A stretch of DNA of 51,279 nt from Sulfurimonadaceae bacterium. Its GTDB lineage: Bacteria > Campylobacterota > Campylobacteria > Campylobacterales > Sulfurimonadaceae. Under the pieces are notes generated by a model that saw only the letters and a program-made list of their open reading frames with translations, had not been told where the DNA came from and made no database searches. Position numbers and translations under genes: made by a program. The stretch is from NCBI GenBank assembly GCA_016744575.1, contig JADGEC010000010.1, forward strand, positions 1 to 51,279, written 5' to 3'. Positions within the stretch are counted from its first letter, which is position 1; every line of letters starts with the position of its first letter. Shown here in pieces: positions 12,548 to 44,453 of the stretch.

Positions 12548-12593
12548 TGCTTTTTTTGCGTTAGACTAGTGTCATCTTTTTTTGGAGTGTAGA

Positions 12594-16486: not shown

Positions 16487-17176
16487 ATGAATGTAGTAGC
16501 GATCATTCCTGCGAGGGGTGGCTCAAAAGGGATCCCAAAGAAGAACATCAAAGAGCTTGCCGGAAAGCCTTTAGTAGCTTATACGATAGAACAGGCTCTT
16601 GCATCGAGACATATTACGAGAGTAGTGGTCAATAGTGATGATGTAAAGATCAGAGATGTGGCTGAGCGATATGGTGCGGAAAGTATGGATAGGATCGAAG
16701 AGTTCCACCATGACAACAGCACTCAGGAAGTAGATAGACTGCTTTATTGGATAGTCGAACAACTGGAGTCTGAGGCAGAGAAGATAGACATAGTCGTTTT
16801 GTTATATCCAACTGCGCCTCTTCGAGATATAGAGAGCATAGATAAGGCGATCACAATGGTCGTAGAGGAAGGGTATGACTCTGTGTTGTCACTCTATGAG
16901 GATACGACATACCTGTGGCGACTAAACAGTGATGATACCGCATCTGCGACAAACTATGACCCTAAGACAAGAGGACCGAGACAAAAAGAGTACTGGAACC
17001 AATGGGCAGAGAACAAAGCGATCTATGTCATGACCAGAGACCTGCTTATGAGTCAGAAATGCCGACTTGGAGGCAAGATCGGTCACGTAGAGATGAGTAG
17101 GTTACGATCGATAGATATAGACCGGCCTGAAGACTTCGAACTGTGTGAACAACTCATCAAAGCATGGATAAAGTAA
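16487..17176 (+). CDS. Acylneuraminate/nonulosonate cytidylyltransferase-like protein
   Basis: A 229-residue enzyme expected to activate a keto-acid sugar with CTP, giving a CMP-sugar. It starts with the nucleotide-binding loop IIPARGGSKGIPKKN, followed by VVVNSDDVKIRDVA, a YPTAPLRDIES segment and the metal-binding end RSIDIDRPEDFE. This pattern is that of NeuA/PseF/LegF. A separate PseF is encoded at 41542-42282, so this copy probably activates another sugar. It sits directly behind the Ldh2 gene and before an SGNH hydrolase. The 3' end overlaps a longer frame of the hydrolase gene. Confidence 0.85.
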   Translation: MNVVAIIPARGGSKGIPKKNIKELAGKPLVAYTIEQALASRHITRVVVNSDDVKIRDVAERYGAESMDRIEEFHHDNSTQEVDRLLYWIVEQLESEAEKIDIVVLLYPTAPLRDIESIDKAITMVVEEGYDSVLSLYEDTTYLWRLNSDDTASATNYDPKTRGPRQKEYWNQWAENKAIYVMTRDLLMSQKCRLGGKIGHVEMSRLRSIDIDRPEDFELCEQLIKAWIK

Positions 17177-20945: not shown

Positions 20946-22299
20946 GAAGGAGCTCTCCAGAGCCATTGATGCGATGCTGGAGGATCTCGATACGACTATT
21001 AAAGTCTCCGGGAAGAGCATCGATATCAAGCAGGTACTTAGGAACCTGATCCAACCGGGTTTTATAAACGCACCTGAATATTTTGAGATATGGAAAGGTG
21101 AACATAAAAAGTACGACTCATATTTTGACTACTACTTATTTGAGAAGTATCTGTTTAAACGCAAAAGATCAAACATCGTCTTAAAGATCGAATACTTCAA
21201 GCATAGGTCTTTATACTTCTTATTTAAGATCAGGTCTCTGCGCAGTCGGTTTTATAGTAAAAAAAATATCAGAGTAAATATTCCTGAGCCAGAGGATGAT
21301 GTCCTGTACACGGTCTTTCATAAAAGAGATATCGATAGTTTCAAAAGAGTGTTTGAAGCGAAGTCACTGTTCTATTTTACCGGGAGTATGAACTCCTATA
21401 TGCTCGATAGAAATAAACAGGTGCTTCCTCTCTTGGCACAGGATGTCCATTTTCCAAATAACGTCATCTTCTATCACTTTTTCTACTATCTAATGGTCCG
21501 GGTCGACTATATTCAGCAGTTCATCACTATGAAGTTTGAGAAGATCGTCTTTTTCGAAGGTATTCAGAGAGATCTTATCCTCCTCTCATCCATCGGTCGG
21601 GAGTACGGAAAAAAGAGCTATTGTATCCAGCGAGGGTGGTGGCAGAATGAGGGTCACAACACGTTTAGAGAGATCGATTATGACTACTTCCTCTCTTATG
21701 GAAAGTACTTCTCTTCAAGAGCACTAAGGCACAATGACTTTCAAAATGTCATTGATGTCGGCAATCCTTTTATTGAGCATCATCCACAAAAGAAGAGTTC
21801 CAAGATCAGATGTGTCATCCTCTCTCAACCCAGTGGAAAATATATTAGCCAGGAGGATAAAGATGGTTTTTTTGGCTTTGTTGAGGCCTTCTCTACTGAC
21901 AAGATCGAGTTTAGGACAAGATATCATCCACGAGAAGTAGAGTATCCTGAAAACGATAGCTCTCTAGAACAGGTCTTGAACGAGAGTGATATCTGCATCT
22001 CTTTCTTCTCATCTACTATGATCGATGCGATCGCGCTCGATTGTGTCCCAATAATATATAATGTAGCAAATATCGATTATCAGCCAGATATATTTCTTGA
22101 TGATCGGCAGACCTGCCGATCTCTACCTGAGTTAGCGGAGACATTGACGTATTTGTTGGAGGATGATGACTATATCGAGGATCTGAAAAAGAGATATAGA
22201 GCGAAGATTTCACTCTATTTCACGGCGATCGGAGAGCAGGCTGTAGCGACAATAGATGAGGTCATTGATGAGAGAGATCATAAAGAGAGTAGGTATTGA
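20923..22299 (+). CDS. Predicted GT-B-like glycan transferase
   Basis: 458 residues with no strong family name that I recognise. Its second half resembles capsule/CDP-glycerol-type GT-B transferases: KIVFFEGIQRDLILLSSIG, YCIQRGWWQNEGHN (a lipid/sugar site-like segment), then DVGNPFIEHH, the IEFRTRYHPREVEYP strand, SDICISFFSSTMIDAIALDCV and VPIIYN. The HPRE and SSTMIDA elements are typical nucleotide-sugar contacts in this fold. The N-terminal 110 residues are basic and hydrophobic and may touch the membrane. The ATG lies inside the previous gene (23-nt overlap). It is probably a glycan-chain transferase; the reaction is unassigned. Confidence 0.6.
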   Translation: MKNIQEYEKELSRAIDAMLEDLDTTIKVSGKSIDIKQVLRNLIQPGFINAPEYFEIWKGEHKKYDSYFDYYLFEKYLFKRKRSNIVLKIEYFKHRSLYFLFKIRSLRSRFYSKKNIRVNIPEPEDDVLYTVFHKRDIDSFKRVFEAKSLFYFTGSMNSYMLDRNKQVLPLLAQDVHFPNNVIFYHFFYYLMVRVDYIQQFITMKFEKIVFFEGIQRDLILLSSIGREYGKKSYCIQRGWWQNEGHNTFREIDYDYFLSYGKYFSSRALRHNDFQNVIDVGNPFIEHHPQKKSSKIRCVILSQPSGKYISQEDKDGFFGFVEAFSTDKIEFRTRYHPREVEYPENDSSLEQVLNESDICISFFSSTMIDAIALDCVPIIYNVANIDYQPDIFLDDRQTCRSLPELAETLTYLLEDDDYIEDLKKRYRAKISLYFTAIGEQAVATIDEVIDERDHKESRY

Positions 22300-23563
22300 A
22301 CAGATGAGAGAGACTACAGAGCATGAAGCGTTTAAAGCGCGTGATATGGCATCAATAGAGAAACGAAAAAAGTGTTATATCCGAATGAACACTTTTTTTG
22401 CCAGATCGAGAAGTAGACAGAAGTATGATTGGAACAAAAAAAGGGAGTACTATCTTCTTTATCCTCTGATAGATGATGAGAAGAGTCTGCGTGAGTTACT
22501 GTTGAGATTAGACTTCTCTCTGCCTGCAAAAAAAGATGCTTATGTGCATATACCAGTCAGTGATACCTTACTGAAAATGCTGGAGACTGAAGTCATAGAG
22601 AGCAAATACCAGTTCATTACTGATGTTCAGATGAAAGTGCGTATGAAGAGTGATTTTATTTTGGTGCACGATGCCTCCTCTCTTAATAGACTGAGTATCT
22701 TACGTCTTGGCTACAAGTCCGAGATCATAGATAATACGTTTTTCTCTGATAAAGAGGCAGAGAGTCTAAGAAAGCTCTTTTACTTTACTTTTGATGATGA
22801 AGAGAAGCGAGCCTATCATGAGCTGTCTCGAAAAAACTATTTGACTATGTTAGAAAAGAACAGAAGTAAGAAAACAGCCTACTGTTTTACCTCAGGCCCA
22901 TCATTTGATGATTATCGCAATATCAAGATGGAAGCAGAGAGTCTGAAAGTGATCTGCAATAGCATAGTGAGAAACAGGGATTTCCTAGAGTATATCGAGG
23001 GTCCGGATATCATCACCTTTGCCGATCCGGTCTTTCATTTTGGCCCTTCTGAATATGCGATGATGTTTCGAGAAGATGTCTTAGCACTCGTAAAACGATA
23101 CGACTCGTATCTGGTAGTACCCTATTATAATGTCCCGCTTCTCTTGGCGCATTACCCTCAGCTTAAAGATCGCATCATCGGTATGCCCGAAGGTAAGACG
23201 ATGAACTTTCCCGATAAGCATGGATTTTTTGTAAAGGGTTCGGCAAATATACTGACACTCTATATGTTGCCAGTGGCATCTGCGGTCTCTAGGCAGGTCA
23301 ATATCATCGGAGCTGACGGCAGAAAAAGAGATGAGAAGTATTTTTGGAAGCATAGCTCATCAGCGCAGTACGATGAGCAGATGGAGAGTGTGTTCCGGGC
23401 ACATCCATCATTTTTCAGAGATAGAAGTTATGAGGATTACTACGAGACACACTGTACGTATCTGGAAGAGCTATTGCGTCATGGAGAGTCAAAGGGTAAT
23501 ACGTACACCACGTTGACACCATCATATATCCCTGCGCTCATAACAAGAGCGATAAAAAAGTAA
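22268..23563 (+). CDS. Maf/DUF115-like GPS-motif protein
   Basis: A 431-residue protein whose C-terminal half carries the signature of Maf-like/sialyltransferase-like sugar transferases: TAYCFTSGPSFDDYRNIK near residue 205, VICNSIVRNRDFL, GPDIITFADPVFHFGPSEY, KGSANILTLYMLP and VNIIGADGRKRDEKYFW. The GPS loop and the IGADG strand correspond to GPSLD and LLGLD in the Maf protein at 12594. The N-terminal 180 residues have no recognisable motif. Three start codons are possible (22256, 22268, 22304); 22268 has GAGG six bases upstream. It is a candidate second glycosyltransferase for keto-acid sugars. Confidence 0.65.
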   Translation: MREIIKRVGIEQMRETTEHEAFKARDMASIEKRKKCYIRMNTFFARSRSRQKYDWNKKREYYLLYPLIDDEKSLRELLLRLDFSLPAKKDAYVHIPVSDTLLKMLETEVIESKYQFITDVQMKVRMKSDFILVHDASSLNRLSILRLGYKSEIIDNTFFSDKEAESLRKLFYFTFDDEEKRAYHELSRKNYLTMLEKNRSKKTAYCFTSGPSFDDYRNIKMEAESLKVICNSIVRNRDFLEYIEGPDIITFADPVFHFGPSEYAMMFREDVLALVKRYDSYLVVPYYNVPLLLAHYPQLKDRIIGMPEGKTMNFPDKHGFFVKGSANILTLYMLPVASAVSRQVNIIGADGRKRDEKYFWKHSSSAQYDEQMESVFRAHPSFFRDRSYEDYYETHCTYLEELLRHGESKGNTYTTLTPSYIPALITRAIKK

Positions 23564-29229: not shown

Positions 29230-29904
29230 ATGAAGATAATCGCGTTACTGCCAATGAAAGGTAATTCTGAGCGAGTTCCCAATAAAAACATGCGCTCCTT
29301 TGATGCTGCACCACTTTATCATGCCATCTTAAAAGTACTTTTAACCTCTGAACATATTGAAAAAGTGGCTATCGATACTGATAGTGATATTATCGCTGAT
29401 GATGCGAAAGAGCATTTTGGAGAGCGTGTCATCATCATCGACAGACCGGAAAAGATCCGGGGTGATTTTGTCTCGATGAACACTATTATAGATTTTGATC
29501 TTTCTCAGCTGGAGGGAGAGCATTTCTTACAGACACACAGTACCAACCCCTTAGTGGGAAGAACGACTATCGATGCAGCCATTGAAAAGTACTTTAAACA
29601 TCTAGAGACATATGACTCTCTCTTTTCAGTGACCCGATTCCAGACCCGTCTTTATGATAAAGATGCAAGACCGATCAATCATGATCCTAATGAACTTTTA
29701 CGGACGCAGGACCTGGAAGCGCTCTTTGAGGAGAACTCCAATTTTTATCTTTTCTCAAAGAGCGCGTTTTACAATGCAGACAAAAAACGCATAGGATTAA
29801 AACCGCAGTTATTTGAGGTCAATAGACTTGAAGCGGTAGATATCGATGAACCCGAAGACTTCAAGCTGGCAGAACTGCTTTACAGCCACAAGGGGGAATT
29901 ATGA
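29230..29904 (+). CDS. Cytidylyltransferase family protein (CMP-sugar synthetase-like)
   Basis: A 224-residue nucleotidyltransferase with the acylneuraminate cytidylyltransferase layout: IALLPMKGNSERVPNKNM as the CTP-binding loop, VAIDTDSDIIADDA, LQTHSTNPLVGRTTIDAAIE, and the terminal AVDIDEPEDFKLAE metal site. The loop reads MKGNSERVPNKN instead of ARGGSxRxPxKN, the variant found in a subgroup of cytidylyltransferase-domain proteins. It is first in an operon with an aldolase, a hydroxyacid dehydrogenase and a HAD phosphatase, which suggests it activates the product of that pathway. It overlaps the aldolase gene by four bases. Confidence 0.83.
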   Translation: MKIIALLPMKGNSERVPNKNMRSFDAAPLYHAILKVLLTSEHIEKVAIDTDSDIIADDAKEHFGERVIIIDRPEKIRGDFVSMNTIIDFDLSQLEGEHFLQTHSTNPLVGRTTIDAAIEKYFKHLETYDSLFSVTRFQTRLYDKDARPINHDPNELLRTQDLEALFEENSNFYLFSKSAFYNADKKRIGLKPQLFEVNRLEAVDIDEPEDFKLAELLYSHKGEL

Positions 29905-30668
29905 GCCTAAAGAGAAAACTCAGAGAGAACGAACTGACGATCGGCTCCTGGCTGACGATCGGGCATCCTTCGGTAGTGGAGATCATGGGCAGTGCAGGTT
30001 TTGAGTGGCTGGTGATCGATATGGAACACACTTCTATCGATCTGGCGATGGCACAGGTCCTTATCACGACCATACAGGCAAATGCGATGAAAGCACTGGT
30101 CCGCGTGAGTAAGAACGAAGAGGTCATCATCAAAAAGGTACTCGATATGGGTGCAGACGGCATAGTCGTACCGATGGTAAAGTCAGAAGCAGAAGCGTTA
30201 GAAGCTATTGGCTATGCCAAATATCCCCCGGTAGGTAAGCGTGGTGTAGGACTCTATCGTGCGCAGAAGTATGGGATCGGGTTTGATGAGTATAAAAGAT
30301 GGGTGGATGAGGAACTGGTGATCATCGCACAGATCGAGCATATCGAGGCGGTGGAGAACATCGAAGAGATCATCACTACCGAAGGCATCGATGGTGTGAT
30401 CATCGGTCCGTATGACCTTTCAGGTTCGATGGGTGCTCCGGGTGAGTATTACCGCGAAGATGTAAAAGCGGCGATACAGAGGGTCCTGGATAAATGTAAA
30501 GAGCATGAGATGCCTTCAGGTTTTCATGTGATCGAATCGGATCCTACCAACTTTATCGAGAGGGCAAGAGAGGGGTGCACCTTTTTGGCCTATAGCCTGG
30601 ACTTCTTCTTTTTGGGCGACTCTGCACGCGCTGGTGTCAAGGCCATCAAAGAGGAGCTTGGAACGTGA
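29901..30668 (+). CDS. HpcH/HpaI-family aldolase
   Basis: A 255-residue class II aldolase of the HpaI type, which joins or splits pyruvate (or a related keto acid) and an aldehyde. Family residues are visible: WLTIGHPSVVEIMGSAGFEW at the start, DMEHTSID with the catalytic His, LVRVSKN with the catalytic Arg, QIEHIEAVENIEEI with the metal-binding Glu, and IIGPYDLSGSMG with the metal-binding Asp. In this operon it could form the carbon skeleton of a 2-keto-3-deoxy sugar acid, which the preceding cytidylyltransferase could then activate. Aromatic catabolism genes, the usual HpaI context, are absent. Confidence 0.87.
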   Translation: MSLKRKLRENELTIGSWLTIGHPSVVEIMGSAGFEWLVIDMEHTSIDLAMAQVLITTIQANAMKALVRVSKNEEVIIKKVLDMGADGIVVPMVKSEAEALEAIGYAKYPPVGKRGVGLYRAQKYGIGFDEYKRWVDEELVIIAQIEHIEAVENIEEIITTEGIDGVIIGPYDLSGSMGAPGEYYREDVKAAIQRVLDKCKEHEMPSGFHVIESDPTNFIERAREGCTFLAYSLDFFFLGDSARAGVKAIKEELGT

Positions 30669-31618
30669 AGGTGTTTATATCAACGCATCCCTTTTCCTCC
30701 ACCTCACCGGAACCGATGCGTCTGTTGAGGTACAATGAGTTTGAGGTGCGTCTAAATCCATTTGAACATAAGATCACGACAGAGGGATTGGCACAGGAGC
30801 TTAAAGACGCAGATATCCTGATAGCGGGAACGGAGAAGATCACCGAGCAGGTCTTTTTGAATGCTCCAAAGTTGAAGATGATCTCGCGTGTGGGGATCGG
30901 ACTCGATGGGATCGACTTTGATCTGTGCAAAAAGTATGGTGTCCGTGTTGCCTACACCCCGGATGCACCGACAATGGCTGTTGCTGAACTCTGTGTCGGT
31001 ATGATCTTGGACCTAAGCCGCCAGATCACCCATACTGACAGGAACATCCGGAAAGGCATCTGGAAACGGCATATGGGCACGCTGCTTTATGGCAAGACGG
31101 TAGGTATCTTTGGTATGGGGCGTATTGGCAAGAGCCTGGTACATCTTCTGGCCCCCTTTAATGTCAAGTTCATGGTCCATGATATAGATCCCGATATCGC
31201 TTTTAGCAGACTGCACAGGGTAGAGCTGGCTACTAAAGTCGATGTGCTGAAATATAGTGATATCGTCTCTGTGAACCTGCCATTGAAAGAGGAGACCTAC
31301 GACTATATCACTGCCAGAGAGCTCGATCTGATGCAAAAACATGCCATCTTGATCAACTCTGCAAGAGGGGGGATCGTAAATGAGGATGACCTCTATGAAG
31401 CGCTTCGAAGCGGAGTGATCGCCGGGGCAGGTGTCGATGTCTTTGAAGTAGAGCCCTATAACGGAGTCTTGTGTGAACTGGATAACTGTCTGTTGACGTG
31501 TCATATGGGAGCGAGTACAGTCGATAGTCGAACTGATATGGAAGTCCAAGCTGTCGAAGAGATCATCAGGTTTAAGCAGAAGAGGCCTTTGAAGAACGAG
31601 GTATTTGAGAATGCGTGA
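30665..31618 (+). CDS. D-isomer-specific 2-hydroxyacid dehydrogenase
   Basis: A 317-residue NAD-dependent dehydrogenase of the SerA/phosphoglycerate dehydrogenase superfamily. The NAD loop is VGIFGMGRIGKSLV, the catalytic Arg is in LINSARGGIVNEDDL, the Glu in GVDVFEVEPYNG and the His in LLTCHMGASTVDSR. It lacks the C-terminal ACT domain of many SerA enzymes. The start is a GTG that overlaps the aldolase stop. In context it may reduce or oxidise a three-carbon or sugar-acid intermediate, for example producing a hydroxyacid for the pathway. Substrate unknown. Confidence 0.86.
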   Translation: MKVFISTHPFSSTSPEPMRLLRYNEFEVRLNPFEHKITTEGLAQELKDADILIAGTEKITEQVFLNAPKLKMISRVGIGLDGIDFDLCKKYGVRVAYTPDAPTMAVAELCVGMILDLSRQITHTDRNIRKGIWKRHMGTLLYGKTVGIFGMGRIGKSLVHLLAPFNVKFMVHDIDPDIAFSRLHRVELATKVDVLKYSDIVSVNLPLKEETYDYITARELDLMQKHAILINSARGGIVNEDDLYEALRSGVIAGAGVDVFEVEPYNGVLCELDNCLLTCHMGASTVDSRTDMEVQAVEEIIRFKQKRPLKNEVFENA

Positions 31619-31625
31619 GTTAACT

Positions 31626-32237
31626 ATGTTCAAAAATATCATCTTTGATTTTGACGGCGTCATATTGGATGCCGTTCCGATGAAGACAGAAGCTTATAGA
31701 AGACTCTTTGAAGCTCTTCCTAGCAAGGAACTGGAGCTCTTCATCGAGTACCATCTCGACAACGGTAGTATCTCTCGGTATGAAAAGATAAAGTACTTCT
31801 TTGAGAACATCCTGAAAAAGTCGATCTCGGAGGCCGAGGTCATGGAGTATGCCTCCCGTTACTCCAGACTTACAAAAGATGAACTGTGTCAGCACAAATA
31901 TCAGATCGAAGACTCTGTAGCTTTTATCAGAAGTCATCATCATGAGTATAATATGCATATCGCATCAGGGGCAGATGAGAAAGACCTAAAAGAGATCTGT
32001 AGAGCGCAGGAGATCGAGAACTACTTTATCTCCACACATGGATCACCTCAGATCAAACGAGAGATAGTCCGCGATATTCTTGAACGAAATGGCTATAAGC
32101 CTGAAGAGACTGTGCTTATCGGGGATGCGATGAACGATCTGAACTCGGCTAGAGACAATGGTATCCATTTCTTTGGATACAACAACAAAGCACTCATCGG
32201 TAAGGCTGATTATCTGATGGCTTTCTCTGATGTGTAG
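31626..32237 (+). CDS. HAD-superfamily phosphatase
   Basis: A 203-residue haloacid dehalogenase-type hydrolase. Motif I is IIFDFDGVILDAVPMK, motif II lies in NMHIASGADEK, and motif IV is VLIGDAMNDLNSARDNG. A helical cap (about 20-85) gives it the beta-phosphoglucomutase-like layout. It would remove a phosphate from a sugar or sugar-acid phosphate, as KdsC or GmhB do in other CMP/GDP sugar pathways. I place the start at the ATG at 31626, where motif I begins; an ATG at 31611 and a TTG at 31605 overlap the previous gene. It is the fourth gene of the operon. Confidence 0.8.
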   Translation: MFKNIIFDFDGVILDAVPMKTEAYRRLFEALPSKELELFIEYHLDNGSISRYEKIKYFFENILKKSISEAEVMEYASRYSRLTKDELCQHKYQIEDSVAFIRSHHHEYNMHIASGADEKDLKEICRAQEIENYFISTHGSPQIKREIVRDILERNGYKPEETVLIGDAMNDLNSARDNGIHFFGYNNKALIGKADYLMAFSDV

Positions 32238-33340: not shown

Positions 33341-34645
33341 TCATCCCACCCCTATGATAGTGATGTCCTTGTGCGCTTTTGATGCCTCATCCTGAAGAGT
33401 AGAGCAGATCTGGGTGTAGGAACCAATGGATGCGATCAGAAACTCCTTCTCTTTACGTCGCAGCGCTTCGCGGGGTGTGAGGACAGGGATACCTTGTATA
33501 AGGATATCATCTGCACTCCTGGTCGAAACGAAGTAGTTGACCTGTATGCCACGTGTACTCAATGCTTTTAAGAGCGTCTGTCCGAGTTCGCCTGTACCGT
33601 AGATACTGATACCTTTAGTGAGCTTAGTGATATCGAGTCGATCTAGAAGCATCTTCTCTGCCTGTGCCAGAGAGATATTGGGTACAGATAGCATGTGTGT
33701 GTTTTTGTGCGTATGTTGCCAGTAGTGCCATTTTGTCCTGAGATAAGGGAGATAGTGTCTGATATGATGGTAAGAGGGACTGCTCGGTTCATAACGACTT
33801 AAGATCTGTGCCTTGAGCCGATGATGAGGTCTGCCAAAGTGTTTGAAGGCACCATAGTGTCTGAGTAGGCGTTCCATATGTTTTAATACATACAAGATAT
33901 CATCACTCTTTTTTAGACTATGTAGATAGCTCTCTTTGCCTGTAGTCGAGAGGTCATGACGGTGATAGTCTAGTCCGATCTCACTGATGGAAGCAAAAAG
34001 TGGAGCGTCTTTAAGTTCTAGATAGAGTGCGGTTGACCACAAAAGGTCTTCAAACATAATTAGATGCCGTCGTCTTGGAAAGAGTGTGAACACTTTTTCT
34101 GCGATGCTTCTTTTGATGATCTTGTTCCAGTTCACATGCCAGATCCAGGCGGTACTCCGACTTGACATGATCTCATCCAAGATCTCATAGCCATCACGGT
34201 GGTCAAATTCGGGTATGGTATTGTAGGCTTCCACCCAATGATGACCGTCTGTGTCACACTGCTGTGCATTGAAAAAGAGAACAGCAGCCCCTGTCTGGAT
34301 GGCCCGTGAAAGACTATTGGCATAGATGGTCTTCGTGACCGTATCATCCGAATCCAAAAAAGCCACATACTCGCCTTTGGCCTGTCTGACACCAGTATGT
34401 CTGGCCTCAAAAGCGCCCCTGTTCTTACTGTGAGACAGGTACCTTATACGTGGATCACGGGTCTGATAGTCGTGGACAATCTCATGACATGATGGGTGTG
34501 AAGCATCATCGACAACAATGATCTCCATATCCTGTAGTTGGTTGTTGCAGACACTTTCAAGGCAGCGTGGTAAGAACAGCTCCGTATGATAGACGGGGAT
34601 GATGACAGAGAGTCTTGGGGAAGGTGTCCTGTCACTATTATGCAT
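33341..34645 (-). CDS. GT2 glycosyltransferase with C-terminal Rossmann-like tail
   Basis: A 434-residue protein, last gene of the pse operon. The transferase domain has LSVIIPVYHTELFLPRCLE, MEIIVVDDASHPSC, YLSHSKNRGAFEARHTGV, YVAFLDSDDTVTK with the DxD site, and MFEDLLWSTALYLE. The C-terminal 100 residues repeat the Rossmann-like tail (ISIYGTGELGQTLLKA, then EFLIASIGS). The start at the ATG at 34645 overlaps the pseI stop by 8 nt; a longer frame to 34687 would overlap it by 50 nt. Its place at the end of the pse operon suggests it uses or extends a Pse-containing glycan, but this is inference. Confidence 0.83.
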   Translation of the reverse strand: MHNSDRTPSPRLSVIIPVYHTELFLPRCLESVCNNQLQDMEIIVVDDASHPSCHEIVHDYQTRDPRIRYLSHSKNRGAFEARHTGVRQAKGEYVAFLDSDDTVTKTIYANSLSRAIQTGAAVLFFNAQQCDTDGHHWVEAYNTIPEFDHRDGYEILDEIMSSRSTAWIWHVNWNKIIKRSIAEKVFTLFPRRRHLIMFEDLLWSTALYLELKDAPLFASISEIGLDYHRHDLSTTGKESYLHSLKKSDDILYVLKHMERLLRHYGAFKHFGRPHHRLKAQILSRYEPSSPSYHHIRHYLPYLRTKWHYWQHTHKNTHMLSVPNISLAQAEKMLLDRLDITKLTKGISIYGTGELGQTLLKALSTRGIQVNYFVSTRSADDILIQGIPVLTPREALRRKEKEFLIASIGSYTQICSTLQDEASKAHKDITIIGVG

Positions 34646-35654
34646 CAAAGCAGTCGTTGTCCAGAGGCTCTCCTCTGCTGATCGCACGTCTTGATGGTTG
34701 GCCTAACATCGTTTTCATGTGCTTGGGATGCAGTCCATGTCCAGGCCGAACACTTCTTATGTTCTCCGAGCTAAACTTCTCCCCTTTTTGGATGTCCTGA
34801 CTGGCGAAGAGACTTCGTGCATACTGTTTTGATTTCTCTCTGTAGTCGACTTGACCGAGCATCTTCTCGACATTACGCACACTCTCTACCATCTCCTTTA
34901 GTTGAGATGGAGAGAGGGAGAAGGCCTGGTCTGGCGTCTCGATAGTCTCATCGGGAGTAAAGTGTTTTTCAATGATCCGGGCTCCTAATGCGACAGATGC
35001 TACTACAGCGTCCGTACCCAGGGTGTGATCTGAGAGTCCGACTGTGACGCCAAACTGCTTTTCCATATCCGGGATACTCAGCAGGTTCATCGACTCTGGA
35101 TCGGCCGGATAAGCGCTGGTACATTTAAGCAGGGCGATCTGCTCGTTGCCCATCCTTTTACAGCTCTCTATCGCAAGCTCAATATCTGCTCTGCCTGCAA
35201 TACCCGTCGAGATGATGACCGGTCTTCCTTTAGAAGCGACATACTCTATCAGCGGGATATCGGTGATCTCGAAAGAGGATATCTTGTAGGCGGGAACATG
35301 GAGTGCTTCGAGCAGATCGACTGCAGAAGCATCAAAAGGGCTGGAGAAAAGAGTGATGCCTAGCTCATCAGCGTAGGCTTTTAATGGTCTATGCCACTCC
35401 CAGGGCAGATAAGCACGCTTATAGAGGTCGTAGAGGTATTCGCCACTCCAGATATCACCGGCTTTAAAAAGGTTGTCCTTGACATCGAGCGTCATCGTAT
35501 CAGCGGTGTAAGTCTGGAGCTTGATAGCATCACAGCCTGCCTCATAAGCGACTTTGACAGCCTTTTTGGCGAGTTGAAAGTCCTGATTGTGATTGGTAGA
35601 GAGTTCGGCGATGATAAAGACTTGTCTATCAAGGTCGTGCGAGGCTATCTTCAT
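34638..35654 (-). CDS. pseI: Pseudaminic acid synthase PseI
   Basis: Condenses 6-deoxy-AltdiNAc with phosphoenolpyruvate to form pseudaminic acid. The 338-residue protein has the NeuB barrel: FIIAELSTNHNQDFQLAKKA, DAIKLQTYTADTMTLD, GEYLYDLYKRAYLPWEWHRP, ISTGIAGRADIE, LKCTSAYPADPESMNL and GLSDHTLGTDA. A C-terminal SAF domain (about 280-338) contains RPGHGLHPKHM. The YLPWEW form is typical of PseI rather than NeuB or LegI. It overlaps pseH by four bases and is directly followed by a glycosyltransferase. Confidence 0.95.
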   Translation of the reverse strand: MKIASHDLDRQVFIIAELSTNHNQDFQLAKKAVKVAYEAGCDAIKLQTYTADTMTLDVKDNLFKAGDIWSGEYLYDLYKRAYLPWEWHRPLKAYADELGITLFSSPFDASAVDLLEALHVPAYKISSFEITDIPLIEYVASKGRPVIISTGIAGRADIELAIESCKRMGNEQIALLKCTSAYPADPESMNLLSIPDMEKQFGVTVGLSDHTLGTDAVVASVALGARIIEKHFTPDETIETPDQAFSLSPSQLKEMVESVRNVEKMLGQVDYREKSKQYARSLFASQDIQKGEKFSSENIRSVRPGHGLHPKHMKTMLGQPSRRAISRGEPLDNDCFDA

Positions 35655-36175
35655 CTGCTGCTCTTTTGGAGAAGATTTGCTATTCTCTTTCTGCGTGGAA
35701 GGTATAGGCTCTTATTAAGATGAAAATGAGCGTACTCAGGATAAGTGGAGACCTCTTTGTAACCTAAGGAGAGAGTAAACCGTATAGACCGCTCGTTCTC
35801 ATGTAAGATATCGCAATAGATCAGCTCCAGCTGTTTCTCATCAAAGATGTAGTCATTGAAAGAGAGCGAGACTCTATAGGCCAGCATCGTGTTTTGAACA
35901 CTTTCGTCATATAGATAAAAACCTGTCTCACAAGAGTTGTCATGGATGTCTTTGGCCCAGATGAGACCTACTGGCCTATCGCCTATCTCGATGATGAAAT
36001 AGAGATCATCACTCTTATTATGATTTTGGAACCACTGCTGATGGTCTTCGAGTGTGATGGTCTCTTGATTCTTCATATGTCTGCGAATATGCTCACTGTT
36101 GCGCCACTGGAGTACCATCGGCAGATCATCACTCTCTAGTGATCGCAGGGTAACGCCATGACCCGTAAGCTGCAC
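35651..36175 (-). CDS. pseH: Pse pathway N-acetyltransferase PseH
   Basis: GNAT enzyme that acetylates the C4 amino group of UDP-4-amino-4,6-dideoxy-AltNAc (position 7 of the final Pse). The 174 residues show VTLRSLESDDLPMVLQWRNS, the conserved HQQWFQNHN segment, ETGFYLYDESVQNTMLAYR and the acetyl-CoA strand ERSIRFTLSLGYKEV. It starts with a GTG overlapping the ACP stop. In this operon pseH follows an ACP/KAS III module, so the same amino group may also receive another acyl unit. Confidence 0.9.
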   Translation of the reverse strand: MQLTGHGVTLRSLESDDLPMVLQWRNSEHIRRHMKNQETITLEDHQQWFQNHNKSDDLYFIIEIGDRPVGLIWAKDIHDNSCETGFYLYDESVQNTMLAYRVSLSFNDYIFDEKQLELIYCDILHENERSIRFTLSLGYKEVSTYPEYAHFHLNKSLYLPRRKRIANLLQKSSR

Positions 36176-36393
36176 TAGTGTCCTGCCAGCTTTAAGATAT
36201 CATCGATGCTCTGACATGCTTCTACGTCATCGACTTCGATATCGAGTCCCATCTCATCATAAAGTTCGAGGATACTTAGCATACTCAAAGAGTCCCAACG
36301 TTCAAAACTACTCAACTGCATGCTTCTTTTCAGCGTGTCTGCCTCAATACCCAGGATATCGCAGAGTTCTGCGAGAAACTTCTCTTTTGTCAT
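36175..36393 (-). CDS. Acyl carrier protein
   Basis: A 72-residue acyl carrier protein with the phosphopantetheine attachment serine in RWDSLSMLSILELYDEMG, in the usual position near residue 35. It is not the fatty-acid ACP by context. It sits between a KAS III gene and pseH, overlapping both, so it probably carries an acyl or glyceroyl group for glycan modification. A second carrier-like protein is encoded at 37453-37737. Confidence 0.88.
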   Translation of the reverse strand: MTKEKFLAELCDILGIEADTLKRSMQLSSFERWDSLSMLSILELYDEMGLDIEVDDVEACQSIDDILKLAGH

Positions 36394-37466
36394 AAGGTCT
36401 CCTTTTTGTAGATGGATGTCTCTGGTGCATATATCTTATTCGTCTGCAGTATGGCACCGCCCCAGCTCAGCCCGATCCCAAAACCGGCTATGACCAGAGT
36501 AAGTGCTTTTTGCTCAAACTCACTGCTTAAAAAGCCGTTGATGGTACCGGGGATGGAAGCGGCATTTTGGTTGCCGTATATCTTTCCGGTCTCCAGAGGG
36601 ACTTTGGCCTTGTCGACTTTAAGACGTGAGGCGATCGTCTTTAAGATATAAGGGTTGGCCTGATGCAGGACAAAGTAGTCGATCTCGTCACTGGAGAGTC
36701 CAGCGTTTTGCAGTAACTCCCTGATAAGCGGCGGGACGGTCTTGATGGCAAAGTTAAAGACCTCTTTACCGTTCATGACCAGGTCCTCATCACGACGAAT
36801 ACTGCCATCTTCACGCTCTTTTTGTAAAAGAGAGTCAGGGGTACTCGGGTCTCGTGCCCCACCAGATGGGATGATGAGATGTCTATACCCTCCACCATCG
36901 CTATAGAGTGAGAAAAAGCTTTTTGGTGCAGGTCTCTTCTCTATGATGATGGCACTTCCGGCATCTCCCATCAAAGGGGTGAAGATCTTGTCACGTTCTC
37001 CGGAGAAGTAGCTGTTCACATCACCAACACATAGTAAGACTTTTCCCATACCGCTGTTGACATAGGAGAACGCGGTAAAGAGACCATAGATGAATCCGCT
37101 GCAACCGAGGTTGATATCAAATGCGGCGCAGCTTTTCGCTAATCCAAGTCTATCTTGCATGATGATAGCAGTGGAGGGTGCCTTGTAGTCCGGGCTTTGT
37201 GTCACAAAGAGTAAAGCATCGATCTCTTCCGGGTCAACGACACCTGCTTCAAAGATCTGCTTTGCACTTTGGACACAGAGGTCGCTGGTACAGACACCAT
37301 CACTGACGACATGGCGGGTATCCAGACCTATGCTACGCTGCAGGCGTGAGAAGCTCGCATCATCGAAACCAAAGCGCTCTTTCTCATCTTCAAGCTTGAT
37401 GATCTCATCGCCGACAGTTGTCACCATCGCAGTGATGGCGATGTCCTCAAAACTAAGTGATGGCAT
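36390..37466 (-). CDS. 3-oxoacyl-ACP synthase III (FabH-like)
   Basis: A 358-residue thiolase-fold KAS III protein. The catalytic triad is intact: Cys in INLGCSGFIYGLF, His in YFVLHQANPYILK and Asn in YGNQNAASIPGTI. In fatty-acid synthesis FabH condenses acetyl-CoA with malonyl-ACP, but KAS III homologues in glycan and antibiotic loci can transfer acyl groups from a carrier to an alcohol or amine. Location between two ACP genes and next to pseH favours the second role. It overlaps both neighbours. The acceptor is unknown. Confidence 0.88.
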   Translation of the reverse strand: MPSLSFEDIAITAMVTTVGDEIIKLEDEKERFGFDDASFSRLQRSIGLDTRHVVSDGVCTSDLCVQSAKQIFEAGVVDPEEIDALLFVTQSPDYKAPSTAIIMQDRLGLAKSCAAFDINLGCSGFIYGLFTAFSYVNSGMGKVLLCVGDVNSYFSGERDKIFTPLMGDAGSAIIIEKRPAPKSFFSLYSDGGGYRHLIIPSGGARDPSTPDSLLQKEREDGSIRRDEDLVMNGKEVFNFAIKTVPPLIRELLQNAGLSSDEIDYFVLHQANPYILKTIASRLKVDKAKVPLETGKIYGNQNAASIPGTINGFLSSEFEQKALTLVIAGFGIGLSWGGAILQTNKIYAPETSIYKKETL

Positions 37467-37737
37467 GCTCTATCCTTTCTTGGAGGTATCGCTCCAATGT
37501 CACAATGTCCTTAAACGGAGTGTTCTTCTCATCCATGCTTGCCTCATTAGCGACAGCTATGTAGTGACCGGTCTGCTCTTCGAGCATAGACTCCAGTTCC
37601 AGGATAAGGTCCAGTGTCCCAAGGGAGTCCAGAAGTTTAAAAAGTGCTGTTGACTCATCTACCTCTTTAAGCCCTTCGATGGCTAACTCCTCATTGACAT
37701 TGCTGATGGCTTCTAATATCGTCTCTCTAAGTGGCAT
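37453..37737 (-). CDS. Second acyl-carrier-like protein
   Basis: A 94-residue acidic helical protein with LFKLLDSLGTLDLILELESML, in which DSLGTLD matches the phosphopantetheine site of acyl carrier proteins (Ser near residue 38). It carries an insertion after helix II relative to ordinary ACP. It overlaps the FkbH gene upstream by 11 nt and KAS III downstream by 14 nt. The pairing with FkbH is typical of glyceryl-carrier proteins. Identification as a carrier is likely but not certain. Confidence 0.75.
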   Translation of the reverse strand: MPLRETILEAISNVNEELAIEGLKEVDESTALFKLLDSLGTLDLILELESMLEEQTGHYIAVANEASMDEKNTPFKDIVTLERYLQERIEHAIT

Positions 37738-39283
37738 CGATCACCTTTATATCTTTATTAATATCGACTTTTTGGGCAGATCTGTAATGTTTTTCACTCT
37801 CATCGAGCATAAGTTCAAAACCATTCTTCTCATAAAAGTCCTCCACAAGGGCATTTTTGGCTGTCGGTATGTATCTCGCGCTCAATGATGGGTGCTTGGA
37901 ACGTATAAAAGCTAGGACTCTCTCTTCAATACCACGACCCAATACCCGACAACTCATCAAAAATGAGTCTATGTGACTATCTTTGATGATGATGACACCG
38001 ACAAGACCCATATCGCCAAAGTCATCTTTTACCTGAAGTGCGTAGACCTTCTCCTGAGACATCAGCGCCTCTATCTCTGCGCGTTCATACCGTCTTGTGG
38101 TGAGATTGAACTGGTTGGTCTTGTTCACCAGTTGGGTGATCCGGTCGAGCTGTCGTGTGTTATTACAGGTCACGGTTATCTCAATATGCAGGGAGGCTAT
38201 ATACTCTTGTCTTGAACCGAGAGATTCACTCAGGTCGAGGCGACTCTTCTCTTCTTGGTAGAGTTTGGTCTTTTGCGTGTCTTCATTAGTGATGTGTAGT
38301 GTCTTTAGCTCAGTAATACTCTCTAAAAGGGTTATGTTCTTTAAGGGGTCGTTCACATCCATTCTGTAACAGGGGATGCCCATCCTCATACGCATCTCTG
38401 CTATCTCACTGTCGGAATCATCGAAAAATATGATGCTGGACCTGCTTAGGTTGAGCCTCTTTAAGATCATATCAAGGTTCTCACTTTTTGGAGACCAATC
38501 GATCGATGCAGCGACAAAGTCATCGAGGCTCAGTGGCATGTTCTTTTCATGGAAGACTTTTTGGACAAGTGACTCATCATTCTTACTAAGCAGTATCAGG
38601 ATGATCCCGCTCTGTTTCAGTGCTTTTAGGTGGCGTTGAAACTTTGTATAGACTATACCAGGGTAGTTCTGGTCGATCTTTATGCCATCGATCCCATCTT
38701 CTCCGACAATGCCGCCCCATAAGGTGTTGTCAGCATCAACGGCTATCGCTTTGATGCGAGAGGTGCTCATCAATGTGATGTTCTCTTTGATCTTCTCTGC
38801 CAGCAGGCTCACTGCCTTTTTTGTAAAGGGGGTCTGAAAAAGGTATCTGTTCCTCTCGTTGACAAGCGTCTGCAAGCCAAACTCTTTGACCAGACTGCTA
38901 AGGTCCAAGATGGCTAGATCAGCAAACTCTTCTGAGAGAGAGACTATCTTTCTGTTGAGCTCCATCAGGGCCATCTCTTGCCCAAAGGTGTCAGTTATAT
39001 GGATCTCGTAAAAGCTATCAGTGACCGTGTTGATGATGACCTTGGTGCTGTGCTCTTCTCTAAATGTCTTTAAGGCGTTGTGTAGTTGTCGAAATGAGCG
39101 GTCAGCATCGAGGCCAAAAAAAGCCGGATCGAGAAGGATGATAAGCAGGTCCTCTTTGACGCCGAGATGGAGCTGGTCAATGATCGTGTCTAAAGGGTAG
39201 TGGACTATTGTGTAGTCAGCTAAAAATCGATTAAAAGGTCTTGTTATTGTGTTGGATAAAAAAGCGATAGTGTTGATGCTCAT
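37727..39283 (-). CDS. FkbH-like HAD-IIIC protein with GNAT domain
   Basis: A 518-residue protein of the FkbH type. An N-terminal region of about 170 residues precedes the HAD subfamily IIIC domain, with IKAIAVDADNTLWGGIVGEDG (nucleophile Asp in DADNTLWG), LLSKNDESLV and SSIIFFDDSDSEIAEMR. The C-terminal part (about 350-518) is GNAT-like with FEKNGFEL-type YEKNGFELM near the end. Characterised FkbH proteins take glycerate from 1,3-bisphosphoglycerate and load it on a carrier protein. The adjacent carrier and KAS III genes fit this. I choose the ATG at 39283, which has GGGAAG upstream. Confidence 0.85.
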   Translation of the reverse strand: MSINTIAFLSNTITRPFNRFLADYTIVHYPLDTIIDQLHLGVKEDLLIILLDPAFFGLDADRSFRQLHNALKTFREEHSTKVIINTVTDSFYEIHITDTFGQEMALMELNRKIVSLSEEFADLAILDLSSLVKEFGLQTLVNERNRYLFQTPFTKKAVSLLAEKIKENITLMSTSRIKAIAVDADNTLWGGIVGEDGIDGIKIDQNYPGIVYTKFQRHLKALKQSGIILILLSKNDESLVQKVFHEKNMPLSLDDFVAASIDWSPKSENLDMILKRLNLSRSSIIFFDDSDSEIAEMRMRMGIPCYRMDVNDPLKNITLLESITELKTLHITNEDTQKTKLYQEEKSRLDLSESLGSRQEYIASLHIEITVTCNNTRQLDRITQLVNKTNQFNLTTRRYERAEIEALMSQEKVYALQVKDDFGDMGLVGVIIIKDSHIDSFLMSCRVLGRGIEERVLAFIRSKHPSLSARYIPTAKNALVEDFYEKNGFELMLDESEKHYRSAQKVDINKDIKVIDAT

Positions 39284-39300
39284 CTTGACTCTTCCCACAT

Positions 39301-39975
39301 CTATTTGATGACCCGAATGCTTTTAAACGCTTCGACATATTCTCTACCTACCCGCATCCCGTGATACTGAGCATTTAGTTCGATACCTTTGAGGCTTCTG
39401 GGATGAGGATAGTCCCGTAGTTCTGAACCATAGGCCCGCATCGCCTTGAGCTTGTCCTCGATGGTGTCACTAATATCAAAAAAGGTGTCTGGCGTGAATG
39501 AGAGTGGATAGTTCCATTCTGTCGAGGAGAGGACCTCAAAGGCATAGATCTCTTTTACTGACTCATCTTCCATCGGTCTGGCGGCTGTGATCACCGCTTT
39601 ATAGGTCAGTTGATGGTCGATGTTGAGATCATGTTCATAGTGGGTAAAGATGATATCGGGGTCGATCTCCTCTTTGACTTTTGAGACCGCCTTGACAAGA
39701 TCTAGCAGATCTACACTATCAAACCGGTTGTCGGGAAACTGTTCTACAAAGAGCTTTTTGATACCGATGGTCGTATTGGCCTCTTCGCTTTCACTTTTTA
39801 ATAGGTCGAGTTCCTCTTCCAGGTCGTCTATATCGTTGTCTCTGCTGCTTTTGCCTTCACCAAGTATCAAGGTATAGGCTTCGTGACCTTCTTTTATCAA
39901 CCTGGCAACGGTCCCAAAACAGCCGAGTACTTCATCATCGGGATGGGCGGCTACTATTAAGATCTTTTTATGCAT
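39301..39975 (-). CDS. PIG-L/LmbE-family deacetylase
   Basis: A 224-residue zinc-dependent N-deacetylase-like protein. The zinc-binding motif AHPDDEVLGCFGTV is at residues 10-23, followed by DIIFTHYEHDLNIDHQLTY with the second metal histidine and SLKGIELNAQYHGMRVGREY. Family members remove acetyl groups from N-acetylglucosamine conjugates. In the pse operon, it could free an amino group for re-acylation by the formyltransferase or the ACP/KAS III module. It overlaps the formyltransferase gene by 8 nt. Confidence 0.88.
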   Translation of the reverse strand: MHKKILIVAAHPDDEVLGCFGTVARLIKEGHEAYTLILGEGKSSRDNDIDDLEEELDLLKSESEEANTTIGIKKLFVEQFPDNRFDSVDLLDLVKAVSKVKEEIDPDIIFTHYEHDLNIDHQLTYKAVITAARPMEDESVKEIYAFEVLSSTEWNYPLSFTPDTFFDISDTIEDKLKAMRAYGSELRDYPHPRSLKGIELNAQYHGMRVGREYVEAFKSIRVIK

Positions 39976-40663
39976 CTTTCATCACCTCGAATCTACCTGT
40001 CAGTCTGTCATCTTCTATCTCTATATCGCTAAACTCGATCTTGAGCTCATCGATCTGTAGAAAAGCCTTCGGATAACCTTCGCCATCTAACATCCTGATA
40101 AAATCATACAGTTTATTGATAGTCAATGTCGATAGAGTCTTGATATCGCTCTCTTTTGGCACTCTTCTTTGAAAAGTAGTCACTTCACCCTCTTGTCTCC
40201 AAGGCTTAGGCCTGTTTTGAAGAAGCTCAGGGATCATTATCTCAAAGATGATAGCGGAGAGCCCTATAAAGTTATCTTGAGCGCTGCCCGAAGAGATATC
40301 GAACTCCTGTTGCAGATAGATATCTCCTGCATCGAGTTCATCGACGACAGCGATGGCAGAGATCTTTGTATCGTAGACCTCTCTCATAATAAGGTTTTGT
40401 AAAGGACTTCCTCCCCGTCCAAATGGCAGGTCGGTCATATGAAACACTATACAGGTGAAGTCCTTATAGATGTTCTCCGGAACCTTCCAAGACCAGTGCG
40501 GAAAAAAGATATATAGCGGATCGATATCTTTGATGCTCGGATAGTCCAGCTCCTCTTGATGGGTGATGAGATGAAAAATATAGGTGTCTTGGTAAGTATT
40601 TAGCAGTGAGAAGTAGTTTTTGATGTTCCACTCTTTGATGGTGGCGATGACGATATTATTCAT
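39968..40663 (-). CDS. Formyltransferase-like protein (candidate sugar N-formyltransferase)
   Basis: A 231-residue protein related to methionyl-tRNA formyltransferase. The active-site region reads CIVFHMTDLPFGRGGSPLQN, matching NxHPSLLPxxRGxxPxQ of the family with His and Gly-Gly-Pro kept, and ELDAGDIY matches the catalytic DxGDI/GDTG segment. The usual catalytic Asn two residues before the His is Val here. A C-terminal domain follows. A pse-linked formyltransferase (PseJ type) that formylates position 7 of Pse is known from other bacteria. The start at the ATG at 40663 overlaps pseG by 8 nt. Confidence 0.72.
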   Translation of the reverse strand: MNNIVIATIKEWNIKNYFSLLNTYQDTYIFHLITHQEELDYPSIKDIDPLYIFFPHWSWKVPENIYKDFTCIVFHMTDLPFGRGGSPLQNLIMREVYDTKISAIAVVDELDAGDIYLQQEFDISSGSAQDNFIGLSAIIFEIMIPELLQNRPKPWRQEGEVTTFQRRVPKESDIKTLSTLTINKLYDFIRMLDGEGYPKAFLQIDELKIEFSDIEIEDDRLTGRFEVMKDA

Positions 40664-41561
40664 ACAGTAGACTTTTGAGAGTTTTTTCCAATACCAAGGC
40701 ATTGAACGTCTTTAGTACAGAATAGCCCTTTTTTTGTAAGAAGTCATACATGCCGGTCTGGTTTTCAGCGGTCTGGATGGCGATAAAAGGGATCTGCATA
40801 AAGTAGACCTCGTTCATAGTCACACTTGGTGTCACGATGGCAAGGTCAGAATAGTTCATCAATTGGGCGATCTCTTGTGAGTCTATATGGAGTGTCACTT
40901 CGTTCTTATCTTCTAGATAACGCTTGAGCTCAGTAAGGTGAGCGTTTGCTGTAGTAGTGACTATGTCGACCAAAACATCGTCAAAGCCCTCCAAGACCTT
41001 CATTATCTCTATATTGATATTTGTATGATCTGCTCCACCCATCGCAATAAAGAGTCTCTTTGAAGTAGGGTCTAAAAAGGGTCGGCCAGCTCGCTTCTCT
41101 TTGATGAACTCTTCTCTCAATAGCGTATGCTCTACCCCACATCGAAGTTCACACATCGCAGGGAGCAGTCCTTTATATCGTATAGGATCGGCAGAGATAT
41201 TGTGATTTAGTAAAATATCGCAATGGTGTCGCTCATAGGTATCATCGAAGACAAATATCTCTACTCCAGTCTGCTCTTTTAGTCTTTTCTCATAGGTGAA
41301 GTCTATTTCGTAATGATCGATAATGATCATGTCGATGGAGTGTTTTTTGATGATCTCGATGACTTCTTGAATATCATTGGATTCAAGGATCTCAATAGGG
41401 TAGTCTTTCGCTCTGATCGTATGGTTAAGGTTGTGGGTAAGGTCCTGGACAGCAAAGGTGATATTATCCTCTTGGAACTGTTCGACTAAGACTAAGTCTC
41501 GCATCACATGCCCAGTACCGATGGTAGAGGATGAGTCTGTTCTAAAGAGTATGTTTTTCAT
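40656..41561 (-). CDS. pseG: PseG UDP-sugar hydrolase
   Basis: Removes UDP from UDP-2,4-diacetamido-2,4,6-trideoxy-altropyranose. The 301-residue GT-B-like protein has the typical N-terminus NILFRTDSSSTIGTGHVMRD with the catalytic-type His, IIIDHYEIDFTYEKRL, LFIAMGGADHTNINIEI and LAIVTPSVTMNEVYFMQIP. I start at the ATG at 41561; a frame nine codons longer lies inside pseF. Overlaps on both sides show it is in the middle of the operon. Confidence 0.93.
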   Translation of the reverse strand: MKNILFRTDSSSTIGTGHVMRDLVLVEQFQEDNITFAVQDLTHNLNHTIRAKDYPIEILESNDIQEVIEIIKKHSIDMIIIDHYEIDFTYEKRLKEQTGVEIFVFDDTYERHHCDILLNHNISADPIRYKGLLPAMCELRCGVEHTLLREEFIKEKRAGRPFLDPTSKRLFIAMGGADHTNINIEIMKVLEGFDDVLVDIVTTTANAHLTELKRYLEDKNEVTLHIDSQEIAQLMNYSDLAIVTPSVTMNEVYFMQIPFIAIQTAENQTGMYDFLQKKGYSVLKTFNALVLEKTLKSLLYE

Positions 41562-42282
41562 CAGTTCTCTCTTCTTTGAGCAGGGCATACATCATCTCGG
41601 CTCTTTCCCAATCCTCTTGAGTGTCGATGTCCTGGACCCTATATCTTGGGAGTATGATAGGAATACTGTCCTGAGCGAATAGGATGGCATCGGATGGTCT
41701 GTCGCTCTTTGACCAGTAAAACTGACCGGCATCCTGGTAGGCATCTTCGAGGTCCTGACTTCGGTCTTTATAGTGTTCAGGCCAGAACATCTCACATCGC
41801 CCCTTTTCGGTGAGCTTAAAGGTCCTTTGGATGGGGTAGGGCATAGACGTAGCGGAAAAAGCATGTGTGGCTGTGGAGTCTCGTAATCGCTCAAATCCCT
41901 CTTTTAGGGTTTTTATCTGTAAAAATGGGGCGGTGGCATAGAGAGTGCAGACATAGTCATAGTGTTGCCCTCTGTCACTGAGCCATTTTAGTGCATGAGT
42001 GATGACCGGACCTGTCCCGGTAATGTCATCAGAGAGTTCGGCTGGCCGCATAAAAGGGACATCAGCACCATACTCTTTTGCAATTTTGGCTATCTCCTCA
42101 TCATCGGTCGAGACGATGACCTTGTCAAAAAGAGCGGAGTCTTGAGCCGCTTTGATAGAGTAGGCGATCAAAGGCAGACCATGAAAGAGTTTGATGTTTT
42201 TTCTGGGTATGCGTTGACTTCCCCCTCTTGCGGGGATGATAGCTATTGCGTTTCTCTCTTCTTCTGTTTTGTGCTGTATCAT
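41542..42282 (-). CDS. pseF: Pseudaminate cytidylyltransferase PseF
   Basis: Activates pseudaminic acid with CTP to CMP-Pse. The 246 residues begin with AIAIIPARGGSQRIPRKNIK and continue with FDKVIVSTDDEEIAKIAKEYGA, the FMRPAELSDD segment typical of PseF, YVCTLYATAPFLQ and the metal site YRVQDIDTQEDWERAE. It lies between pseC and pseG. It is one of three full-length cytidylyltransferases in the window and the one whose context ties it to Pse. Confidence 0.93.
   Translation of the reverse strand: MIQHKTEEERNAIAIIPARGGSQRIPRKNIKLFHGLPLIAYSIKAAQDSALFDKVIVSTDDEEIAKIAKEYGADVPFMRPAELSDDITGTGPVITHALKWLSDRGQHYDYVCTLYATAPFLQIKTLKEGFERLRDSTATHAFSATSMPYPIQRTFKLTEKGRCEMFWPEHYKDRSQDLEDAYQDAGQFYWSKSDRPSDAILFAQDSIPIILPRYRVQDIDTQEDWERAEMMYALLKEERTDEKHTL

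Positions 42283-42321: not shown

Positions 42322-44453
<2,132 letters not shown>

Follow-up and report, generated by a model that had tools for sequence, protein, structure and literature searches.

The biosynthetic operon for pseudaminic acid (Pse) was analyzed in a window of 51,279 nucleotides from a Sulfurimonadaceae bacterium (contig JADGEC010000010.1, assembly GCA_016744575.1). In this operon a block of five genes, encoding an FkbH-type HAD-IIIC protein, an acyl carrier protein (ACP1), a ketoacyl-ACP synthase III (KAS III), a second carrier protein (ACP2) and a GNAT-fold acyltransferase, was located directly before pseI (Table 1). We consider it reasonably probable that the five genes form an exchangeable cassette, which replaces pseH and puts a non-acetyl, glycerate-derived acyl group on N7 of Pse. 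Open reading frames (ORFs) and profile matches agreed with the initial annotation that FkbH, ACP, KAS III and the second ACP make up a single overlapping run on the minus strand, and the successive gaps from FkbH to PseI were -11, -14, -4, -1 and -4 bp. The same four genes had been taken to fill the interval between pseG and "pseH"; all four were found there, together with two further genes, for a formyltransferase-like protein and a PIG-L deacetylase. The FkbH end given at 39283 corresponds to an in-frame ATG, and the gene is taken here as the frame listed in Table 1. The name "pseH" was appropriate to the extent that the GNAT is homologous to PseH and directly precedes pseI, but its score of 77.5 bits falls under the PseH (TIGR03585) cut-off of 93.1. 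The PseC and PseB assignments rest on the initial annotation and on operon comparison.

Table 1. Genes of the Pse operon in the window, with the evidence for each and the proposed roles
Feature	Coordinates	Strand	Evidence and proposed role
PseI, pseudaminic acid synthase	34638-35654	-	TIGR03586 456 bits, over cut-off
GNAT ("pseH"), diverged PseH homologue	35651-36175	-	Proposed N-acyltransferase using a carrier-bound acyl group
ACP2	36175-36393	-	PF00550, over threshold; WDSL motif; proposed carrier of KAS III substrate or product, and GNAT donor
KAS III	36390-37466	-	PF08541 and PF08545; Cys122-His268-Asn299
ACP1	37453-37737	-	LLDSLG phosphopantetheine motif; proposed FkbH partner
FkbH-type HAD-IIIC protein	37727-39298	-	TIGR01686 256.1 bits against curated cut-off 146.65; proposed to charge ACP1 with a glycerate-derived acyl group
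PIG-L family deacetylase	39301-39975	-	PF02585
Sugar formyltransferase-like protein	39968-40702	-	PF21553; closest solved relative 1zgh, E 3.5e-72
PseG	40656-41588	-	TIGR03590 231 bits, over cut-off
PseF	41542-42282	-	TIGR03584 335 bits, over cut-off
PseC aminotransferase	42322-43452	-	ORF; 54-68% identity to the gene at the same place in cassette operons
PseB dehydratase	43449-44453	-	ORF; 70-73% identity to the gene at the same place in cassette operons

The pse operons of Campylobacterota that bear a formyltransferase gene usually run pseG-formyltransferase-PIG-L-canonical pseH-pseI, and the window showed the identical frame with FkbH-ACP1-KASIII-ACP2-GNAT at the pseH position. In genome G156 (L188) the order fliD-pseB-pseC-x-pseG-formyltransferase-PIG-L-pseH-pseI reproduced the window frame, with pseH standing where the cassette stands. 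A search of 299 genomes for the formyltransferase yielded 11 besides that of the window, and a PIG-L gene came directly after it in all of them. Canonical pseH occupied the slot of the same operon frame in L178, L180, L182, L183, L188, L189 and L193; the pair was found after pseI in L187 and L191, after the first PseH in L185 and L186, and in another layout in L192, and the order is therefore common, not universal. The cassette was also located between pseG and pseI in eight operons in which the formyltransferase pair was absent (L035, L036, L039-L041, L043-L045). Three of the four complete cassette genomes carried no canonical PseH, which was absent genome-wide from G000, G029 and G323 (each at least 99% complete); G011 contained the cassette together with one canonical PseH, the latter in a second pse locus elsewhere. 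Judged from gene order and sequence, the cassette is most readily understood as a direct substitute for pseH. The initial annotation had presented the module as an alternative to acetylation by PseH, and this view gained support, with canonical pseH missing from the exact slot and from the genome. The order and sequence of the cassette are repeated in many genomes, and chance is therefore excluded. Across the order, 16 of 379 genomes had a KAS III at E <= 1e-60, 8 of which, the window counted, at 54% identity or more, and the cassette-bearing relatives were mostly uncultured Campylobacterota. The search of plasmids with the operon DNA gave no useful match. Loci outside the window were annotated by BLAST to the window proteins and a few references, and some neighbours are possibly mislabelled.

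The formyltransferase and the PIG-L deacetylase were also considered as module members replacing PseH, which was rejected because of their position beside canonical pseH elsewhere. For a pair that adjoins canonical PseH, a modification of its own is the easier reading: the two enzymes would probably exchange acetyl for formyl on the other nitrogen. As a separate observation, in most cassette operons (L035, L036, L039, L040, L044 and L045) the place of pseF was taken by an SpsF-like cytidylyltransferase gene, accompanied by a divergent PseG (33-36% identity to that of the window), and these two genes perhaps match a different N-acyl substrate.

The GNAT was the sole PseH-like match in the source genome. 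The GNAT of L039 scored 72.4 bits against the PseH profile, compared with 105-177 bits for the canonical relatives. The cassette GNATs formed one clade separate from the canonical PseHs of the same order (support 100/99), and members of this clade were found only together with the cassette. At the GxG site of the coenzyme A (CoA) pyrophosphate loop, which was kept in most canonical PseH relatives aligned and in the C. jejuni-like PseH, the cassette GNATs had a conserved QN[ST][LM]. A predicted model built on 7 sequences showed the GNAT fold with a mean pLDDT (predicted local distance difference test) of 90; H. pylori PseH was its top structural match and FdhC was among the best, FdhC being also the best PDB sequence match. 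The GNAT might instead be an ordinary acetyl-CoA-dependent PseH, with FkbH, the ACPs and KAS III serving another position: N5, once deacetylated by PIG-L, or an O-linked group. This is improbable given the cassette-bound clade, the sub-threshold score and the exchanged CoA loop, and the other pse-type cassette operons showed no PIG-L gene, although the fold and the H. pylori match would suit it, as would the canonical type of the window PseG and the presence of canonical PseH together with an FkbH module in a C. jejuni-like locus.

The window FkbH kept the HAD DxD nucleophile and the TNQF and SCR motifs. The motifs DxDNTLWGG, SKN, TNQFNLT and SCR were also present in the FkbH proteins of Streptomyces and Burkholderia plasmid clusters, where their genes adjoin KAS III. 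Such motifs are those of FkbH proteins from polyketide-type gene clusters, which makes glycerate the probable starter loaded by FkbH, in line with the loading of a glyceroyl-type group that had been proposed for it. ACP1 had no Pfam match and only a DltC match under the cut-off. A scan of genome contigs gave 337 KAS III relatives, and among the best 80 of these ACP1 was present in 17 of 18 FkbH-bearing loci compared with 1 of 62 FkbH-free loci; an ACP2-like gene adjoined KAS III in many loci, FkbH-free ones included.

The catalytic triad of the KAS III, described as intact in the initial annotation, was confirmed by alignment, and Cys-His-Asn was found in 110 of 110 aligned KAS III-type proteins. 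The 50 closest listed folds of the KAS III model, which was built on 10 sequences, were of the FabH, FabH2, BioZ and PqsD types. The protein scored 195.5 bits against a cut-off of 292.1 for housekeeping FabH (TIGR00747). Trp32 and Arg36, CoA-contact residues of FabH, were both lost in the window KAS III and lost or rare across the family, which fits an ACP-borne starter. The KAS III-type transferases CerJ and ChlB3 have the triad Cys-His-Asp (PMC9573744), whereas every member here had Asn and no Asp. On triad, fold and clade, the KAS III was rejected as the first choice for the sugar transferase. The earlier proposal that it hands the acyl group to a nonulosonate precursor was not supported, and in the structure search suggested for detecting acyltransferase likeness the closest listed folds were condensing FabH types. 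Judged by its residues, the KAS III is probably not the transferase, and the diverged GNAT is the better candidate. Within the replacement model, condensation with malonyl-ACP2 is modestly favoured over plain transfer, because the triad Asn is kept and the closest listed folds are of condensing types.

In the proposed pathway, FkbH would load a glycerate-derived acyl group onto ACP1, and with this ACP1-borne group as its starter, KAS III would in the simplest case carry out a condensation with malonyl-ACP2. The completed acyl group would then pass from ACP2, by action of the diverged GNAT, to the 4-amino nitrogen of the PseC product, a UDP-sugar. This nitrogen is the site of PseH action and becomes N7 of Pse, which would accordingly bear the acyl group there in place of acetyl. 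In its fullest form, a two-carrier mini-pathway would build a polyhydroxy-oxo-pentanoyl cap for N7 of flagellar Pse from glycerate and one malonyl, with the cassette used in two amino-sugar pathways; this version is put forward tentatively, with more doubt than confidence. No account of the FkbH-ACP1-KASIII-ACP2-GNAT cassette was found in the literature searched.

The second amino-sugar pathway was indicated by a sister block in Campylobacterota UDP-bacillosamine operons (L038, L047-L049, L056), where FkbH-ACP1-KASIII-ACP2 in the same four-gene order as in the window lies with a FabG-like short-chain dehydrogenase/reductase (SDR) beside PglD, PglE and PglF. The sister block has its own reductase, whereas the window cassette has pse genes around it and no reductase. 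In the KAS III tree, which came from a quick search with SH-aLRT (Shimodaira-Hasegawa-like approximate likelihood ratio test) support only, the pse-type proteins fell in one clade (100), were grouped with the bacillosamine type (99) and lay near further FkbH and SDR loci. The sister-block reductase had no close relative in the pse-type genomes, where the best matches (34-36%) resembled general reductases. No published work on the bacillosamine-operon block was found in the literature searched. In the wider family, an SDR reductase was present in 55 of the 62 FkbH-free loci among the best 80. L055-L118 comprised a large family of ACP-KASIII-SDR loci from many phyla, often beside PglD-like or GNAT acyltransferases, which suggests widespread ACP-borne N- or O-acyl groups. 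A cassette in which acetate units are built into 3-hydroxybutanoyl-ACP by KAS III and ACP2, with FkbH serving some other purpose, would resemble this KAS III, ACP and ketoreductase family and would agree with FdhC, a hydroxybutanoyl transferase, as top PDB sequence match and one of the top fold matches of the GNAT. It is nevertheless very doubtful, as all pse-type cassettes have FkbH-ACP1 ahead of KAS III, and it is the reductase that they lack.

Among studied systems, the nearest cassette is the glycerate-utilisation operon of tetronate biosynthesis, the core of which consists of FkbH, ACP and a FabH-like protein (PMC7489565). An FkbH-like protein, a standalone ACP and a FabH-like KAS III are common to both (PMC7489565). 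The window operon differs in having no polyketide synthase (PKS) and no Agg4- or Agg5-type genes, and encodes in place of them a sugar N-acyltransferase and an additional ACP; judged from ORFs and profile matches, no gene of the operon was assigned the role of the Agg4 acyltransferase, the Agg5 dehydratase or the PKS. In A. baumannii capsules, psaGH in place of psaDE leads to 7-N-3-hydroxybutanoyl Pse (PMC9676051). The psaABCGHF module (Pse5Ac7RHb) is thus a case in which a mid-pathway gene exchange alters the N7 acyl group, as proposed for the window, whereas in the change from psaD/psaE to psaG/psaH, compared here by description, no ACP or KAS III gene is listed (PMC9676051).

The C. jejuni locus with ACP, FabH-like and HAD-IIIC genes cited in the initial annotation was recovered in L154, a genome labelled C. 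jejuni-like from gene content only. Its pse/flagellin locus contained FkbH-KASIII-ACP at about 31-37% identity, which by gene order we take to be Cj1302-Cj1304. Unlike the window, L154 keeps a canonical PseH (176.8 bits); its FkbH motifs differ (NTLYQG, NQFIANY), its KAS III belongs to another clade, and a methyltransferase-like and an AAC(3)-like gene are present. The flagellin glycan formulae published for C. jejuni 11168 are C13H20N2O7 and C16H26N2O9 (PMC4975691), and their difference, C3H6O2, equals by arithmetic that between acetyl and dimethylglyceroyl. The formulae therefore fit one N-acetyl replaced by dimethylglyceroyl, as in the Pse described in the initial annotation. This glycan is not a direct guide to the window product, given that canonical PseH is retained alongside the C. 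jejuni module and that the FkbH motifs are not the same. Cj1295 is the only gene named as needed for the dimethylglyceroyl-type glycan in the available part of the source (PMC3068675). In L154 (14453-15785) a Cj1295-like gene beside pseC was split in two reading frames, consistent with the known phase variation of this gene (PMC3068675). For the FkbM and TylF methyltransferases of the window, which had been suggested to methylate the module product, no tie was found; their genes are on the opposite strand, at a distance of 11-14 kb.

Several points weigh against the proposed pathway. The window PseG is canonical-like (50-60%), whereas most cassette operons have a divergent PseG (33-36%). The reductase of the sister cassette is missing, so that a lengthened chain would keep its ketone unless a housekeeping FabG reduced it. 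An N-acyl group with no additional carbons accounts for the C. jejuni formulae, although the homologous module may not be the source of that group. As for the donor, H. pylori PseH uses acetyl-CoA yet is described with an atypical P-loop (PMC4964394), and FdhC, a hydroxybutanoyl sugar transferase, had its structure solved with CoA and the hydroxybutanoyl product. The lost CoA loop was dropped as proof of an ACP donor owing to these two enzymes, and the lost glycines are no more than suggestive of a non-CoA donor. Two of the same points favour a replacement of PseH in which the chain is not extended, KAS III only passing glyceryl on from ACP1 to ACP2, so that a plain N-glyceroyl ends up on the sugar: the pse-type cassette has no reductase, and the C. 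jejuni formulae, from a locus type with FkbH, KAS III and ACP genes, fit dimethylglyceroyl for acetyl (PMC4975691). With the condensing-triad Asn kept in every member, in contrast to CerJ and ChlB3, and the KAS III clade linked to ketoreductases, we regard this version as rather unlikely.

Other flagellin glycosylation loci were also compared. In the available parts of the sources, fatty-acid type genes were listed for the Shewanella sfm operon and for the flagellin islands of Aeromonas and Enterobacteriaceae, and no FkbH-KAS III cassette was found there. A polyhydroxy acyl group may also occur on the flagellin glycan of Treponema denticola, but the literature search turned up no account of it. 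Two Campylobacter-type pse loci (L158, 2310-11276; L159, 8335-11636) contained several ACP and KAS III genes with an SDR, FkbH being replaced, and constitute another, putative acyl module.

If the cassette acts as proposed, side chains of flagellar nonulosonic acids would be drawn from exchangeable carrier-protein cassettes, beyond CoA-borne acetyl, and such cassettes could explain unassigned glycan masses. In C. jejuni-type flagellin loci, the genes for ACP, FabH-like and HAD-IIIC proteins would gain a testable role, and a genetic handle on new N-acyl sugars would be obtained.

Further sugar-related genes were located on the plus strand of the window. At 29230-32237, genes for a cytidylyltransferase, an HpcH/HpaI aldolase, a 2-hydroxyacid dehydrogenase and a HAD phosphatase are consecutive with overlapping ends, and seem to form a pathway of their own that yields a CMP-activated acidic sugar. 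At 15443-17176, a gene of the malate/L-lactate dehydrogenase family is directly followed by a second cytidylyltransferase gene. The regions 12582-15380 and 22256-23563 encode a Maf-type flagellin glycosyltransferase, with MptE-like and Maf N-terminal domains, and a protein of smaller size that looks Maf-like by eye but had no Pfam match.

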